This document shows positions 5,019 through 11,256 of a stretch of 64,000 nt of DNA, piece by piece; positions within the stretch are counted from its first letter, which is position 1; every line of letters starts with the position of its first letter. The notes under the pieces are model-generated. The model was not told where the DNA came from, did not search any database, and was given only the letters and a program-made list of their open reading frames with translations. Position numbers and translations under genes: made by a program. The stretch spans positions 124,001-188,000 of the forward strand of contig JAJTZB010000001.1 in assembly GCA_032906765.1 (NCBI GenBank), read 5' to 3'. The stretch is from Nitrososphaerales archaeon. GTDB lineage: Archaea; Thermoproteota; Nitrososphaeria; Nitrososphaerales; Gagatemarchaeaceae.

Positions 5019-5288
5019 TTACTTCTTCGCGTCCTTGGTAGGCTCCGACTTATGTCCCATCTTGCCCTCGCCTGACATGTCAGGGATGTCAGTGATTGGC
5101 TCCGGGGGCGGGGTCGTTGCCATCGTGTACCCTATCCATGCAAGGATCCCGAGGAGAAGCGCCACAGCCAGGAACGCCGTGACCTCAAGAGTGGCCTGGG
5201 GGACGAACCACAACAGGGCAGCGTAGAGGATTATGCCGATGATGCTTGCGCCGAAGATTCCTCCGCCGATGGCTCTGTCGTTGGCCAA
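5019..5288 (-). CDS. Small two-helix membrane protein, unknown function
   Basis: An 89-residue protein with two strongly hydrophobic segments (about residues 10-28 and 35-55) and a soluble acidic/Lys-rich C-terminal tail rich in Pro and Lys. Not recognised. The frame stays open much further upstream, but those residues overlap the methylenetetrahydrofolate-reductase-like gene and are Arg-rich junk. I prefer the TTG at 5288 because a TATA-like element (TTATAT on the minus strand, about 5319-5329) sits some 35 bases before it. It is therefore probably transcribed from its own promoter inside the gap after the upstream gene. Confidence 0.55.
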   Translation of the reverse strand: MANDRAIGGGIFGASIIGIILYAALLWFVPQATLEVTAFLAVALLLGILAWIGYTMATTPPPEPITDIPDMSGEGKMGHKSEPTKDAKK

Positions 5289-5318
5289 GGTTGTGGTTTC
5301 TAGGCGTCGCAGACCAGT

Positions 5319-5329
5319 GATATAACGGT
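5319..5329 (-). promoter_or_regulatory. TATA box candidate for the small membrane protein
   Basis: Minus-strand CGTTATATCAC lies just downstream of the preceding gene's stop and about 30-40 bases ahead of the TTG start at 5288. The spacing fits archaeal transcription starting near 5300 with a short leader. Confidence 0.4.
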
Positions 5330-5338
5330 TGCCTTCTT

Positions 5339-6199
5339 TCAGTCCAGTATGAACCTGGCGTGCTCCGGCTTGCCTCTTGTCGAGACGTAGACTCCGGCGA
5401 GGCCCCTGCCTCTTACTCCGGCTGCTACTCCCCGAGCCTCTTTCAGCAGTGCCCTTTCTCCCTCTCGCGCGATCCTGTCGAGCCTTGGCGGCAGGTCCCA
5501 CCCGAACTTCTTCCTGCAACCTTCCACGTCTGCTTCGTCTCGGAACGGAAAGACGTTGAGGAGAACCCGGCCGTCGAGCCCGGCGCCCGTGAGAAGTCTT
5601 GCGTGCTTCGGCAGCGTTGTCTCTGCGTCTGTGGTTGGGGGCTGCGCGAGAAGCAGGTCTGCCCCGCTCTTCAACCTGTCCTTAGCGAGCCGCAGGCCCC
5701 GCTCCGTTCTCAGGATGGACAGGTCCACGGGCGCGAGGAGCCTGCATTTCAAGTTCGAGCGGACAGAGAGGTCGCGTACCTGCCCGAGCAGCTCCGAGAC
5801 AGAGGCGAAATCGTAGACGTTCTTGGCTCCTTCGCCCGTGCCGTACCGGTCTCCCCAGACGATCATGAGACTGGTCAATCCCATCGAGAAGGCTGTCACT
5901 ACGGAGGAGAGAACTGCGGGCCTGTTCGAGTCCCTTGCCGTTATGACTGGAATCGCGTCTACCCCTGACATCTCCTTGAGAAGCGCAGCCGAGTGCACTG
6001 TGGAGAGCTTGAGGCGCCCTGTGTCCTTGACGTCGGCAACAAGGATTGCATCCGCGATCTGCTGCAGGCGCTTGACCCTCTCGACGAAGTCTCGCGTCTT
6101 CTGCCTCAGCCCAATCATCGGTTCCTTGGTCTTGTCAGCGCTGAAGTTTGGTGGGAAGACTTCAACAATCGACGTGAAAGGCCGAGTCGGTTTGGGCAA
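5339..6199 (-). CDS. Methylenetetrahydrofolate-reductase-like flavoprotein
   Basis: A 286-residue TIM-barrel protein of the FAD-linked MTHFR family, whose members reduce methylene-tetrahydro(methano)pterin or -folate to the methyl form. The SIVEVFPP opening (residues 10-17) is the typical first strand with its acidic residue, followed by a repeated beta-alpha pattern and GVDAIPVITARDSNR (about 80-94), matching the conserved segment after the second strand. Length matches short archaeal and bacterial MetF-type proteins. It starts with TTG immediately after the TAG stop of a MetE-like gene, and is the last of four tightly packed genes, which suggests it feeds methyl groups to, or takes them from, the methyltransferases (inference). 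Confidence 0.75.
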   Translation of the reverse strand: MPKPTRPFTSIVEVFPPNFSADKTKEPMIGLRQKTRDFVERVKRLQQIADAILVADVKDTGRLKLSTVHSAALLKEMSGVDAIPVITARDSNRPAVLSSVVTAFSMGLTSLMIVWGDRYGTGEGAKNVYDFASVSELLGQVRDLSVRSNLKCRLLAPVDLSILRTERGLRLAKDRLKSGADLLLAQPPTTDAETTLPKHARLLTGAGLDGRVLLNVFPFRDEADVEGCRKKFGWDLPPRLDRIAREGERALLKEARGVAAGVRGRGLAGVYVSTRGKPEHARFILD

Positions 6200-7447
6200 C
6201 TACTCGACCATCTTCTGCCTGTATGCGACCGAGGGCGGTTGCATGGACGCCTCGGCCCTTCCGAGCTCCAACGTGAGGTAGGAGAGGTGCCTACGGGTTA
6301 TTCCGAGAGAGTCGGCGTCGTCGTTTATCGATTGGAGGAGCCCCTCGGCGGAACGCGACCTGTACCTCTTCACCACCCTGTGCTTGTACGTGTAGAATGT
6401 CACAACGATCTCCTTGGTCTCCCTCTTCACTGTGACCAGAAAGTACCCCTTGGAGTCATACTGGCTCCGCTCGAGCCTTGCCGGTTTCGGTTCGACTGGC
6501 TCGCCATGGAACACGTCGTCCCTGGCCATCGTCATGTTCGCGTTCTTCTCGAACGCAACTTCACGGTGAAGGCTGCGTTCGCCGCAGTGTGGGTGGACGA
6601 AGCCTATCTTGTCGCTCCCCAAGGACTTCTTGCCCCTCTCAATGAGCGAGGCGATCTCTTCCACCGTCTCCACCCTTGGACTCTGCGCGTCGAGGACGCC
6701 CAATCCTATGGACTGGTCGAAGGTTACGCGGGACGCCTCCTCGAGGAGACGTGGGTAGTGGAAGAAGTCGAGCTCCAGCGTTTGGACCCTCAGTCCCGTC
6801 AGAAATCTGAAGATTCTTGTTGTATCCCCGCATACGTGAAGCGCAAGCGGAACCTTCGCCACTGAGGCGATGTCTTCGATGAGCCCTTTGACATAGTGAG
6901 GAATCGACGACTCCGCCGCTATGTTGGGGGAATCGAGCTGGATCATCGAGACCCCGCCCTCAGCCTGGAGGTCCTCGACCTCTGGGATTAACACGTTTCT
7001 GTTGATGTCCCTAGCGAGCTCGCGCGTGTCGCGATAGGAACCCGTCGAGATTTTCGCGAACCTTGCTAGGGTGTATGCGTCTGTCACCGGCTCCTTGAGA
7101 AACAGGTGCTCAGGAAGGACGCTTCTCGCGTACTTCACGTCTCCCAGTCTGATTTTCGAGACCCTGGAGACCTTGCCTGTCACGAACGCCTCCGCCCCCC
7201 GCCAGCCTATCCCTCGGACGAACTTGGGGTCGAGGAAAAGCGAGTAGAGGTCGCCCCTCGTCTGCCCTGTCGAGAGGACCTCCATCCCAGACGCGGCGAA
7301 GTCGCTTATCGACTCCTCGATGCTCCAGAGGAATGGGTCGACGACCTCGTCAGAAAGGCCCGCAGCAACCATTTTCGCGTAGTACTCGACGTCTTCCGAT
7401 GCTGGGAAGACGGGGTAGCTTCCGATTGTGGTTGTCCTCGGCGTCAA
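6200..7447 (-). CDS. Core-MetE-type methyltransferase with extra C-terminal domain
   Basis: A 415-residue cobalamin-independent methionine-synthase-like barrel (catalytic C-terminal domain only; full MetE is about 750). Zinc-site motifs are visible: HVCGD near residue 205 and GFVHPHCGE near 295, giving the His, Cys and distal Cys ligands. After about residue 325 there is an added domain that begins with SKGYFLV and ends with ELGRAE; it resembles the DUF4346 module found with pterin/corrinoid methyltransferases (recognition from memory, moderate). Probably transfers a methyl group from a corrinoid protein or methylpterin to homocysteine or another thiol. The TTGA overlap with the preceding gene implies translational coupling. 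Confidence 0.75.
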   Translation of the reverse strand: MTPRTTTIGSYPVFPASEDVEYYAKMVAAGLSDEVVDPFLWSIEESISDFAASGMEVLSTGQTRGDLYSLFLDPKFVRGIGWRGAEAFVTGKVSRVSKIRLGDVKYARSVLPEHLFLKEPVTDAYTLARFAKISTGSYRDTRELARDINRNVLIPEVEDLQAEGGVSMIQLDSPNIAAESSIPHYVKGLIEDIASVAKVPLALHVCGDTTRIFRFLTGLRVQTLELDFFHYPRLLEEASRVTFDQSIGLGVLDAQSPRVETVEEIASLIERGKKSLGSDKIGFVHPHCGERSLHREVAFEKNANMTMARDDVFHGEPVEPKPARLERSQYDSKGYFLVTVKRETKEIVVTFYTYKHRVVKRYRSRSAEGLLQSINDDADSLGITRRHLSYLTLELGRAEASMQPPSVAYRQKMVE

Positions 7448-8646
7448 GAGCGCAACGCCTTCCTTGCATGCGATGCGCCTGAGACGACTAGGCCGAGCAT
7501 CGCGTAAGCCACCTCGGGCCTGCGCGTCCTGAGGCCGCAGTCAGGGGTAGCGTAGATCTTCTCAGGGCCCAGACCGGTCGCCTTGGCTGAGTAGAGGATA
7601 CGGTCCCGCACTGTGGCGACTGATGGCAGGCGGTCGGTGTGGACGTGGATGACACCGATGCCAAGCTCTCTGTCATAGCCATACTCCCTGAACAGCGAGA
7701 GGTCCGAGTATCCAGGCCGTGCCTCCGCAGTCAAGCCTCGTCCGTACGAGTCCCTGTTTGCGTACTCGAAGGAGAAACGGGAACAATTCTTCATCTCGAG
7801 GATGTATGGGAACAACAGTGCATAGCCTTGTCTGGGCGGGAAGCAACTGTGCACGCTGAAGGTTGCGCTGAGCCCCTTGGTTGTCTCGTTGAACGACTCG
7901 GCAACAAGTTTCGCGTCTTCAACCGTCTGGTACTGCGTTGCCGCGGGTATGTCAAGCTGGAAGTGTTTTCCACCATTGTCGATGAGCTCCCTGATTACGC
8001 GCCTTATCACCTTCGCAAGGTCGAGGGTGAACTCTCTCCTCGCCTCGAAGTTGCGCCGCGAGGGCGGCCCACCCTTCCTCGCCCATTTGCGAGCGTAGCT
8101 GTAGTCGTCGGACCACGACATTATTGTGATTGCGTCTGTCACGGGCACCTTGACCTCTCTTGTTGTGTTTCTCTTCACGAAGAGGAACTCATCAAGGTGG
8201 TAGTTGGTCCGGAAGACAGGCCTCTTCCTTATCGAGGCGATCCTCCAGTACTTGTTGTCGAAACTCCGCACCTTCCCGATGAAATCGAATCCTTCGATGT
8301 TGGACACCGGGGTTTCATACATCTCGGTCCTTGCCTGCTCTCCACTCCAGACGACGTCAATCCCCTCTGGCGCCCCGAACTCCTTCCCTGCCTTCTCCTG
8401 CATGGCAAGCGCGTAGAGCATTGAGAAGTCGACTATCCTGCTCTTCTCGCGGGCAGTGAAGCCTGAGCGCTTCGCCAGGATCCCAAGAAGGGTCTTGTAG
8501 CCCTTGACTTGTAACATGCTTCCCCATTCACTCGCGGATGCTATGTCCAGTTCGCCGAGAGCAATCGATCGGAACGGTTTGACCCTCCAAGAGAACTTCG
8601 GGAGGCTGCCTATCTCCTGCGTAGGGAAGGCTATCCCTCGTGTCAC
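7444..8646 (-). CDS. Second core-MetE-like methyltransferase
   Basis: A 400-residue MetE-family barrel, divergent from both neighbours. It retains the opening EIGSLP motif near residue 11, a VHSC segment (about residue 265) where the His/Cys zinc ligands are expected, and ATPDCGLRTRR near 370, matching the conserved Cys motif of MetE C-terminal domains. The central region holds family helices but has long insertions. The start is GTG, sharing GTGA with the stop of the preceding gene. Three consecutive MetE-like genes suggest subunits of one complex or a methyl-transfer relay rather than redundancy. The substrate is not deducible. Confidence 0.72.
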   Translation of the reverse strand: MTRGIAFPTQEIGSLPKFSWRVKPFRSIALGELDIASASEWGSMLQVKGYKTLLGILAKRSGFTAREKSRIVDFSMLYALAMQEKAGKEFGAPEGIDVVWSGEQARTEMYETPVSNIEGFDFIGKVRSFDNKYWRIASIRKRPVFRTNYHLDEFLFVKRNTTREVKVPVTDAITIMSWSDDYSYARKWARKGGPPSRRNFEARREFTLDLAKVIRRVIRELIDNGGKHFQLDIPAATQYQTVEDAKLVAESFNETTKGLSATFSVHSCFPPRQGYALLFPYILEMKNCSRFSFEYANRDSYGRGLTAEARPGYSDLSLFREYGYDRELGIGVIHVHTDRLPSVATVRDRILYSAKATGLGPEKIYATPDCGLRTRRPEVAYAMLGLVVSGASHARKALRS

Positions 8647-9608
8647 GAGAGCGCTCTCCTGGCCCGTGCAAGGTTCTTCAGTTTCTCGTCCGCCACCAAT
8701 CGAGGAACGTACCGCAGGTCGCAGGATGGGGCAAGAACCAGTCTCTCCGTCTTGTCTACGAGGCCGCCCACCCTCTTCGCCAGCTCTCCGGGGCTCTCGA
8801 CGTAGCTGCTCCTCGCGTTCGCGACACCCGCGACTATGCCCTTGCTGGTCTTCCCGACTTTCGAAGCGTCTGTCTCGGTCAGGTCGAAGCCTATGTCGTC
8901 GGTCGCGATTGAGTCGAGGAGGAACGGGAGGTATCCTGCTGCGTCCCCGAAGAATGTATGGTACCCTGTGCGGACATGGCAGTGCCTGAGAGCACTCCTG
9001 ACGGCCTCTGCCACCTGTGAGAGCTCACCCTTCCCCGGCTTCTCCTCTCTGAACCTCGCGACGAGGCTGGGCGCCGACAGCTGCAGGTAGCCGGCACCCA
9101 TGGATTCGAGGGAGCGGAGGATCGGGGAGAGAATGTCGTCTGCGTAGGCGAACATCAGCTCCTCACGGCTCCTGTAATGCTTGTTGTCTGAGCACTCAGC
9201 GAATGTGAGCGGGTCGGGGAGTACCACTCTTGACGACTCTTCCCCCAACAACCGGCTCTCGACAGCCTGTCCGAAACTGCGACCGTCTATCGAGATGGCG
9301 CTTTCGATTAGGGGGACGTAGTAGAAGGTGTTTGTGTTGAACCATCGCACAAGGGGCCCCTTCTTGACACCCTCAGCCTCCGTGGTGATTGGGGTCAGCA
9401 GATCCTGCCAGTGGGTCGTCAACTGGCCGTCAGATATGAACTCGAAGCCGAGCGTCTTTTGAAGGGCGATTAGCTGCCGCACGTCCTCCCCGAACTGTCG
9501 GCCCAACTGCTTCGACCCGATCCTTCCTCTTTCCCAGTCCTGGGTTGCCTGTATCGTCTTCTCAGACCTGGCATGGATGCCGCTCAGCGACAGGAGAACT
9601 TCAGTCAA
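8643..9608 (-). CDS. Third MetE-like (UroD/MetE-superfamily) methyltransferase
   Basis: A 321-residue member of the same barrel superfamily and the first gene of the operon. The N-terminal part (FISDGQLTTHWQDLL, about 55-70) resembles the region of MetE-type proteins that recognises the substrate end, and the C-terminal LAPSCDLRYVPR (about 293-304) keeps the final Cys motif. The HVRTGYHTFFGDAAGY segment has His but no neighbouring Cys, so the zinc site looks incomplete compared with the other two paralogues. The start is TTG with a good GGTGA ribosome site 6 bases upstream; a TATA-like TTATTAG lies about 45 bases upstream. Confidence 0.68.
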   Translation of the reverse strand: MTEVLLSLSGIHARSEKTIQATQDWERGRIGSKQLGRQFGEDVRQLIALQKTLGFEFISDGQLTTHWQDLLTPITTEAEGVKKGPLVRWFNTNTFYYVPLIESAISIDGRSFGQAVESRLLGEESSRVVLPDPLTFAECSDNKHYRSREELMFAYADDILSPILRSLESMGAGYLQLSAPSLVARFREEKPGKGELSQVAEAVRSALRHCHVRTGYHTFFGDAAGYLPFLLDSIATDDIGFDLTETDASKVGKTSKGIVAGVANARSSYVESPGELAKRVGGLVDKTERLVLAPSCDLRYVPRLVADEKLKNLARARRALS

Positions 9609-9855: not shown

Positions 9856-11256
9856 TTGTGGCTGCCGCGGATTTCAGTTTCGGGCTCCTCCCCAGAAGAA
9901 AGGCGGCCAAGGAGGGTCCTGCGCTTAAATTGGATTTTGCAACTGCTCCGCGAAAAGCCTACGGCAAAGAAGATCAGACGCTACTGTCTCGAAGAAGCCC
10001 GAAACTGGGCTGATGCGTTCGACGCCGGAGATTCCATTCTCAAGATTGCGGCCCGCGAGCGTGTAGACCCGGGGACCGTCAGCAACTGGCTACACAAGCT
10101 CGGGGTTGAGCTAAGGCAGGGGCAACATAAAGTCGCGCAACCTCCGCTCAAGTACCCAAATGAGTTAGTGGAACTGGCATCGTCCGGACCCAACAACGTC
10201 CTAAGACTTGTCCGCGAGCGTGCCTGGGGAGTTGACCCCACCGAAAGGGGACAGCATCAGTTGACCAAGTTCTGCAAATTCATTAGGTTGCATCAGGGTG
10301 GAATTGGAGTCGAAGAAATCGCGCGAAGGTTGGAGGTTCACCGGTCTACGGTCGCCGAATGGAGGAATGGAACTGATACGCCGTACCTTGTCAAAGTGGC
10401 ACAGCAGGCACTAGCGAATCCGCACGCTGCCACGATGAAGATCATTTCGCTTAGAGTTGAATCTGGAGGAAACCTCCCCACAGAATGGTTTCTCGTCCCT
10501 GCGCAAGTCAGACATTACGAGGATTTTGCAGATGTTGTCAGAAGACTGGTTCCTAATGAAGAGGCATACTCAAGGGCTGAGCAGCTAGGGATCACCAGGA
10601 CCGTTCTTGCCGACCTTAGGCCAGAACTCGCCGGTTATTCCCTTGGCATGATGTTGGGGGACGCGGGCAAACTAGGCGGGAGTCAACAGCGGTTCAAGTC
10701 AATGAATATTGATATTCAGTTTACCAAAGGTGAGGAATCCAATCTGATGCTGGGAGAATTCGCTTGCTTGTGCTTCAACCTGTTGGGACTATCGATGCAC
10801 AGAATCAAGGACAAGCTTCCGAGTGGAACTCAGCTTCTGGGGGAGGACCCAACCGCTGCTTTCAGATGGTCGTCGAACCGTTCTCCGATCATCGCTTGGA
10901 CCTTTCGGACTTGTATTGGGTTGGATTTTGGCCAGAACACCAGCACTAGTCAAGCACAGATGGGATGGCTTTTCGATGCCCCTTACAATTTCCGAAAACG
11001 GTTCCTTCAAGCCCTAGGTGATTCGGATGGTACGGTAAGGAACCATGTGTCAGAGATTACCAGTGTTCCCAACGCTGAATTTGTTACGAGTGTGATGAAG
11101 AGCCTTGGGATGAAGACCGCGCACACGCGATTCGAGAATCAGACGCCGATACGGTCTATCGTGTCAAACAGCGAAGCGTCCACCGTGCCAATCTTCAACG
11201 AGTTTGCGTCTGGCTACCGCTACCAGAAGCTGATGAGATTCGCAGGTGTTATCTGA
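9856..11256 (+). CDS. Free-standing LAGLIDADG homing endonuclease with HTH motifs
   Basis: About 466 residues as read. Two helix-turn-helix-like segments (about 53-84 and 150-172, each with a TVxxW recognition helix) precede two LAGLIDADG-type motifs, YSLGMMLGDAG near 261-271 (acidic D269) and FLQALGDSDGT near 383-393 (acidic D391). Both catalytic acids are kept, so it may be active. There are no intein splicing blocks and no host exons, so it is a free-standing enzyme. The A/T content is higher than that of its neighbours, consistent with transfer. The start is uncertain: TTG at 9856, or TTG at 9937 which removes 27 residues that look non-coding. It is convergent with the aEF1A gene, ending 50 bases from it. 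Confidence 0.75.
   Translation: MWLPRISVSGSSPEERRPRRVLRLNWILQLLREKPTAKKIRRYCLEEARNWADAFDAGDSILKIAARERVDPGTVSNWLHKLGVELRQGQHKVAQPPLKYPNELVELASSGPNNVLRLVRERAWGVDPTERGQHQLTKFCKFIRLHQGGIGVEEIARRLEVHRSTVAEWRNGTDTPYLVKVAQQALANPHAATMKIISLRVESGGNLPTEWFLVPAQVRHYEDFADVVRRLVPNEEAYSRAEQLGITRTVLADLRPELAGYSLGMMLGDAGKLGGSQQRFKSMNIDIQFTKGEESNLMLGEFACLCFNLLGLSMHRIKDKLPSGTQLLGEDPTAAFRWSSNRSPIIAWTFRTCIGLDFGQNTSTSQAQMGWLFDAPYNFRKRFLQALGDSDGTVRNHVSEITSVPNAEFVTSVMKSLGMKTAHTRFENQTPIRSIVSNSEASTVPIFNEFASGYRYQKLMRFAGVI

Follow-up and report, generated by a model that had tools for sequence, protein, structure and literature searches.

A DUF4346-bearing, MesA-like putative homocysteine methyltransferase encoded with a predicted split methionine synthase and a MetF relative in an archaeal operon

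Why should one archaeal operon encode three proteins of the methionine synthase (MetE) type next to a relative of MetF? The operon lies in a stretch of 64,000 nucleotides from a Nitrososphaerales archaeon, here called the window, and it touches on a wider problem, namely the in vivo methyl donor of the core MetE enzymes, which is still an open question in the field. These enzymes are thought to take the methyl group from corrinoid proteins, and the characterised ones use methylcobalamin in vitro (Price et al., PMC7857596); for methanogens the donor has been called unknown (PMC9012536). What the locus offers is a core-type enzyme that is fused to a DUF4346 domain and always stands beside a MetF-like reductase, in a lineage without a known methyl-carrying corrinoid protein, and so the operon allows a direct test of where the methyl group comes from and of what DUF4346 does. 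The original prediction took the three genes for divergent core-MetE paralogues acting in a multi-subunit methyl-transfer complex or in a methyl relay of unknown substrate. Our analysis points to methionine synthesis as the most likely task of the operon, of which a split MetE (A and B) is the known part and C, a variant core homocysteine methyltransferase with DUF4346, the new one.

The four open reading frames lie on the minus strand in the order A (8643..9608), B (7444..8646), C (6200..7447) and D (5339..6199). As had been predicted, they overlap or abut, A and B sharing 4 bases (8643-8646), B and C another 4 (7444-7447), and C and D meeting without a gap (6200/6199); the three consecutive MetE-type barrels and the MetF-like gene are likewise borne out, with A, B and C all matching MetE domains in Pfam and D matching PF02219. 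Over the whole genome, PF01717 is matched by B and C only, and PF02219 by D only. The order A-B-C-D recurs across the families f1 and f9 with proteins ~25-68% identical to those of the window, and thus the arrangement is not a matter of chance. Since the cluster of three non-identical barrels and a MetF-like gene is both conserved and tightly packed, the proposed shared role in methyl transfer is likely. No Rfam match to an RNA regulator was found near the operon. Just downstream of D, at 5019-5267 on the minus strand, is encoded a small predicted membrane protein without a Pfam match, which is conserved at ~50-77% identity in many relatives where D stands alone, its gene again adjoining D; a longer open reading frame that runs into D (5019-5519) is probably not the true extent of this gene. 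Upstream of the operon a divergent gene (9856-11256, plus strand) encodes a product in which two helix-turn-helix regions are joined by a C-terminal portion resembling, by eye, a homing-endonuclease-type domain, and its homologues adjoin EF-1alpha in relatives.

Gene A (321 aa, TTG start) had been described as a barrel with an incomplete zinc site. When mapped on E. coli MetE (from NC_000913, our residue reference), its zinc positions are indeed not conserved, and the N-domain type of MetE is normally without zinc. The N-domain protein of a split MetE is recognised by a Meth_synt_1 score that is above the cut-off and better than that of Meth_synt_2, in a protein of no more than 400 aa; A scores 42.1 bits for Meth_synt_1 (PF08267, cut-off 27) and 21.0 bits for Meth_synt_2 (PF01717), so that it falls with the N-terminal, pterin/folate-binding type of subunit. 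Gene B (400 aa, GTG start; PF01717 66.4 bits) has the complete zinc site (H266 C268 E294 C370) and the homocysteine residues S14, E103 and D232, and 14 homologues show no exception at the equivalents of S433, E484, D599, H641, C643, E665 and C726. With these residues, and with its gene beside that of the N-domain protein A, B has the features of a catalytic subunit, at 190.7 bits for NCBIfam PRK04326, under its cut-off of 406. Judged from sequence, A and B together make up one split MetE, A being its N-terminal and B its C-terminal half, a type already described in many archaea, where an N-domain protein is encoded beside a catalytic-domain protein (Price et al. 2021, PMC7857596). The idea of three core-MetE paralogues is hence to be abandoned, only C being extra; of the zinc sites, those of B and C are complete as had been suggested, and A is no defective core MetE but a protein of the N-domain type. 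A recent triplication was considered as well and is ruled out, B and C being ~25% identical and placed on opposite sides of the MetE tree, and A being of the N-domain type. A split MetE that is not accompanied by C is common, and its genes usually run D-A-B, with a D that is far more distantly related. In two genomes of genus g7 (G018 and G012), single MetE-type proteins of ~385 aa (L084 and L089) reach ~180-187 of 406 bits for PRK04326, far under any curated methionine-synthase cut-off.

Gene C (415 aa, TTG start) joins a barrel (PF01717, 83.2 bits) to a C-terminal DUF4346 domain (PF14251, 44.1 bits, cut-off 29.6) at residues 331-404 (6236..6457, minus strand), a domain that is absent from the original description. 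Its zinc site, on the stretch 6584..6838 (minus strand) when aligned to E. coli MetE, is complete, with H204 C206 D227 C288 at H641/C643/E665/C726, and upstream of it are the homocysteine residues S10, Q62 and D172 (the positions of S433/E484/D599); zinc and homocysteine residues alike are invariant in 15 aligned orthologues, down to 37% identity. Homocysteine contacts are thus intact in both B and C, which leaves an unknown substrate without support. An AlphaFold2 model of C (pLDDT 88.2, pTM 0.89) has as its best PDB match the T. maritima MetE (1xpg, with methyl-THF; E 2.9e-19), and its structural matches to MetE are far above those to MtaA/UroD, to which the Pfam and NCBIfam profiles also indicate weak similarity. 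In the barrel tree B groups with the split-MetE catalytic subunits, and C forms a clade of its own (100/100) in the core/MesA-like half, apart from them; a tree that unites C and MesA-like proteins in a single clade is not rejected, however (p-AU 0.19). Of the NCBIfam models the MesA-type PRK00957 fits C best, with 162 bits where the cut-off is 258 (137-181 bits for other C orthologues). By sequence criteria C is thus the unusual and novel member of the operon, not described before, and fits none of the MesA-D families.

How C travels with its neighbours bears on what feeds it. C with DUF4346 was found in 27 of 400 genomes of the order Nitrososphaerales, all in the families f1, f5 and f9 (two of the 27 genes are cut at contig ends or split), and the named members bearing it are a Nitrososphaerales archaeon and unclassified archaeal MAGs; in 398 genomes across the phylum a full C-type protein occurs in this genome only, the other matches being barrel-only. 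D adjoins C in all 27 genomes, and B lies directly upstream of C in 24 of the 25 with enough contig. The exception is a 75% complete genome (G040) in which D is followed by C and PF01717 finds nothing else, so that C would have to suffice there. At two further loci (L024 and L037) the A-B lineage is only ~25-30% identical to that of the window (branch support 100/100) and C and D group with those of the window, from which it follows that recombination has shuffled A-B and C-D as separate modules, with the order A-B-C-D kept. The original proposal was to be given up if each gene were found singly and with other partners elsewhere; A and B do occur widely without C, and D without A, B and C, but C is never without D and only once without A and B, and so the proposal survives in half.

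Gene D (286 aa, TTG start) is a putative methylene-tetrahydropterin reductase relative that scores 28 bits for the MTHFR family PF02219 (cut-off 24) and 15.5 of 293.7 bits for the curated equivalog TIGR00676. E28, D120 and Q183 of E. coli MetF correspond to E13, D117 and Q186 of D, and in an alignment of 22 rows of the D family Glu28 and Asp120 are invariant and Gln183 is found in 20, with Glu in two. The positions T59, H88, R118, Y152 and D165 of E. coli MetF, which we take to contact FAD, are not conserved. D is accordingly a diverged MetF relative with catalytic residues kept and FAD-contact residues lost, and, since these contacts are not conserved, it may use an electron carrier other than that of MetF. 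In genomes without A, B and C a D orthologue still occupies the syntenic position that the operon has in the window, close to EF-1alpha and next to the small membrane-protein gene. Three such genomes (G006, G014 and G026; L027, L028 and L083), of which G006 is 100% complete in a single contig, have no recognisable methionine synthase and no match to PF01717 or PF02574, and each encodes one small B12-binding protein, as large as the mutase subunit. As D persists where no methionine synthase is recognisable, it may have another role. In one genome with an intact operon (G016), a second D-like gene (L147, contig C1 ~118600) is broken by an internal stop.

For the methyl donor of C, the corrinoid proteins proposed for core MetE are the first to be considered. 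A profile search of the genome found PF02574 (MetH), PF03599 (CdhD/E) and PF04208 (MtrA) absent, and the sole PF02310 domain is the C-terminal domain of methylmalonyl-CoA mutase. CdhD/E and MtrA are absent from every f1 genome searched, as is PF02574 bar one partial match (G022); some relatives have further PF02310 matches. As far as known families go, a corrinoid-fed C was rejected on these grounds: the genome holds no known corrinoid methyl-carrier family, and hence the corrinoid proteins put forward as donors for core MetE are not available to C. On the other side, D is always adjacent, and DUF4346 occurs otherwise on pterin- or Mtr-linked proteins, which makes methyl-tetrahydropterin the simplest, and most likely, donor for C.

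The company kept by DUF4346 deserves a closer description. In the sampled f1, f5 and f9 genomes the domain is found in C only. A motif in the last ~85 residues of C recurs at the C-terminus of the 'dihydropteroate synthase-like' proteins of TIGR00284, in the domain that follows their barrel; these proteins belong to Wood-Ljungdahl-bearing relatives, and the DUF4346 motif occurs also in an MtrA model (PRK00964). The TIGR00284 barrel that bears DUF4346 resembles methyl-THF:corrinoid methyltransferases. Two such proteins (L077 and L079) score higher as methyl-THF:corrinoid methyltransferase than as dihydropteroate synthase, and therefore their 'synthase-like' annotation may be misleading. Modelled alone, the DUF4346 of C gave a pLDDT of 86, and at E<0.001 its fold matched nothing in the PDB; a literature search by the name DUF4346 found no paper; in the Pfam name PterinBD-DUF4346, 'pterin' is a label and not a measurement.

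Taken together, we favour a methionine operon with two synthases, a reading to which we give roughly an even chance. D would reduce methylene- to methyl-tetrahydropterin, and A and B, as the standard synthase, would move its methyl group to the zinc-activated homocysteine. C would act beside them as another zinc homocysteine methyltransferase, belonging to the core (MesA-like) type and having DUF4346 in place of the MetE N-domain; it would probably be fed by the same methyl-tetrahydropterin made by D and not by a corrinoid protein, with DUF4346 as the presumed module for the use of the methyl-pterin donor. Several points speak against this reading: a single operon would seem to have no need of two zinc synthases, the genome with D and C only (G040) is no more than 75% complete, the 'pterin' of DUF4346 is but a name, and D, which lacks the FAD contacts of MetF and persists without a recognisable methionine synthase, may do something else. 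A bolder extension, which we put forward tentatively and below even odds, makes C a fifth family of core methionine synthases, DUF4346 a compact module for the delivery of methyl-tetrahydropterin, and D with C a self-sufficient synthase. If true, DUF4346 would stand in for the corrinoid protein as well as for the MetE N-domain, D and C acting alone as in G040, and a comparable job might be expected of it in TIGR00284 and MtrA proteins.

Alternatively, A, B and C could assemble into a single complex, with C as a third barrel specialised as a partner of the split MetE and not as an independent synthase; a multi-subunit complex including C, as originally proposed, is possible, yet we consider this form of it unlikely. 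The conserved order and the 4-base overlaps would suit it, and the split-MetE pair of P. furiosus (PF1268/PF1269) does form a complex (Price et al. 2021, PMC7857596). So would two inserts of B, one in the loop after the first strand (residues 21-52; 8491..8586, minus strand) and one in a strand-to-helix loop (residues 187-202; 8041..8088, minus strand), which by TIM-barrel logic are both expected on the catalytic face. Both are found in 18 of 18 distinct genomes with B beside C, as against 2 of the 27 B proteins that have no C next to them; a first sample had 19/19 rows against 0/12, and the wider one added two exceptions and one partial. This distribution hints at a co-adaptation of B and C, but the tree allows one or two origins of the inserts, so that the correlation is statistically weak and a hint rather than a proof, and the two exceptions (L126 and L127) come from ammonia-oxidiser genomes that have both inserts and no C (L132, also C-less, has insert 2 only). 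Moreover, L024 and L037 have a distant split-MetE pair before a window-like C-D, that is, a change of partner is tolerated, and C keeps a full active site. As to the exceptions themselves, the genomes of L126, L127 and L149 (G504, G603 and G357) are placed among the ammonia-oxidiser families and have a split-MetE-type pair without C, those of L126 and L127 with the B inserts of the window; sampled members of these families (G043, G045, G057 and G059) otherwise carry MetH-type genes, and the pair in G504, G603 and G357 is possibly due to horizontal transfer or contamination.

Two active synthases side by side could also suggest separate methyl sources, the donor of C then being other than that of A and B, for instance methylcobalamin in free form or a compound methylated on sulfur or nitrogen. 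The MesA/MesC-type Gln at the Glu484 position and the MesB-type Asp in the zinc site would agree with this, as would the use of methylcobalamin by characterised core MetEs in vitro (PMC7857596). Yet the genome is without a known corrinoid methyl-carrier, DUF4346 goes elsewhere with pterin or Mtr proteins, and the linkage of C and D is constant, so that we hold a separate donor for doubtful, to the same degree as the single complex. Least probable, and rather remote, is that C methylates another thiol and methionine comes from A and B with D only, as its weak URO-D/MtaA similarity and the presence of D without any known methionine synthase might suggest, against which stand the Ser/Gln/Asp homocysteine contacts, invariant across all C orthologues, and the best structural matches of C, which are MetE, far above MtaA/UroD.

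Returning to the favoured methionine operon with two synthases, its parts compare with known systems as follows. A and B, as adjacent genes for an N-domain and a catalytic-domain protein, are like the split MetE of P. furiosus, the other MetE-type gene here being C only; unlike in split MetE without C, B is ~50-80 aa longer, because of its two inserts, and under the PRK04326 cut-off, and is then followed by C. D shares Glu28, Asp120 and Gln183 with MetF, but has lost the FAD contacts, scores weakly and has no MetV-like partner gene in the operon. Among the core families, MtrA is the predicted donor for MesA, and the corrinoid iron-sulfur protein CoFeSP (CdhD/E) for MesB and MesC (Price et al., PMC7857596). 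C is like MesA (METE_METTM; PRK00957) in its barrel, in the Gln at the Glu484 position and in lacking the MetE N-domain, and it has the zinc and the S/Q/D residues; it is unlike MesA in its score under the PRK00957 cut-off, in Asp for Glu as the third zinc ligand and in DUF4346, PF14251 being in all C orthologues seen, whereas MesA is catalytic-domain-only, and its host is no methanogen and has no MtrA. With MesB it shares the Asp ligand, but Gln62 is invariant where the Glu484 region of MesB is not conserved; with MesC it shares the Gln (the MesA/MesC state at 484), but has Cys206 in all rows where MesC has mostly His, and the CdhD/E of both settings is absent from the genome. As for DUF4346 itself, its partner in C is a MetE barrel, in contrast to the pterin-binding or corrinoid domain in TIGR00284 and MtrA, and all three, that is, C, the TIGR00284 proteins and the DUF4346-bearing MtrA models, have in common the motifs D-x-x-G-x-F, E-x-x-K/R-A-E and Y-x-Q.
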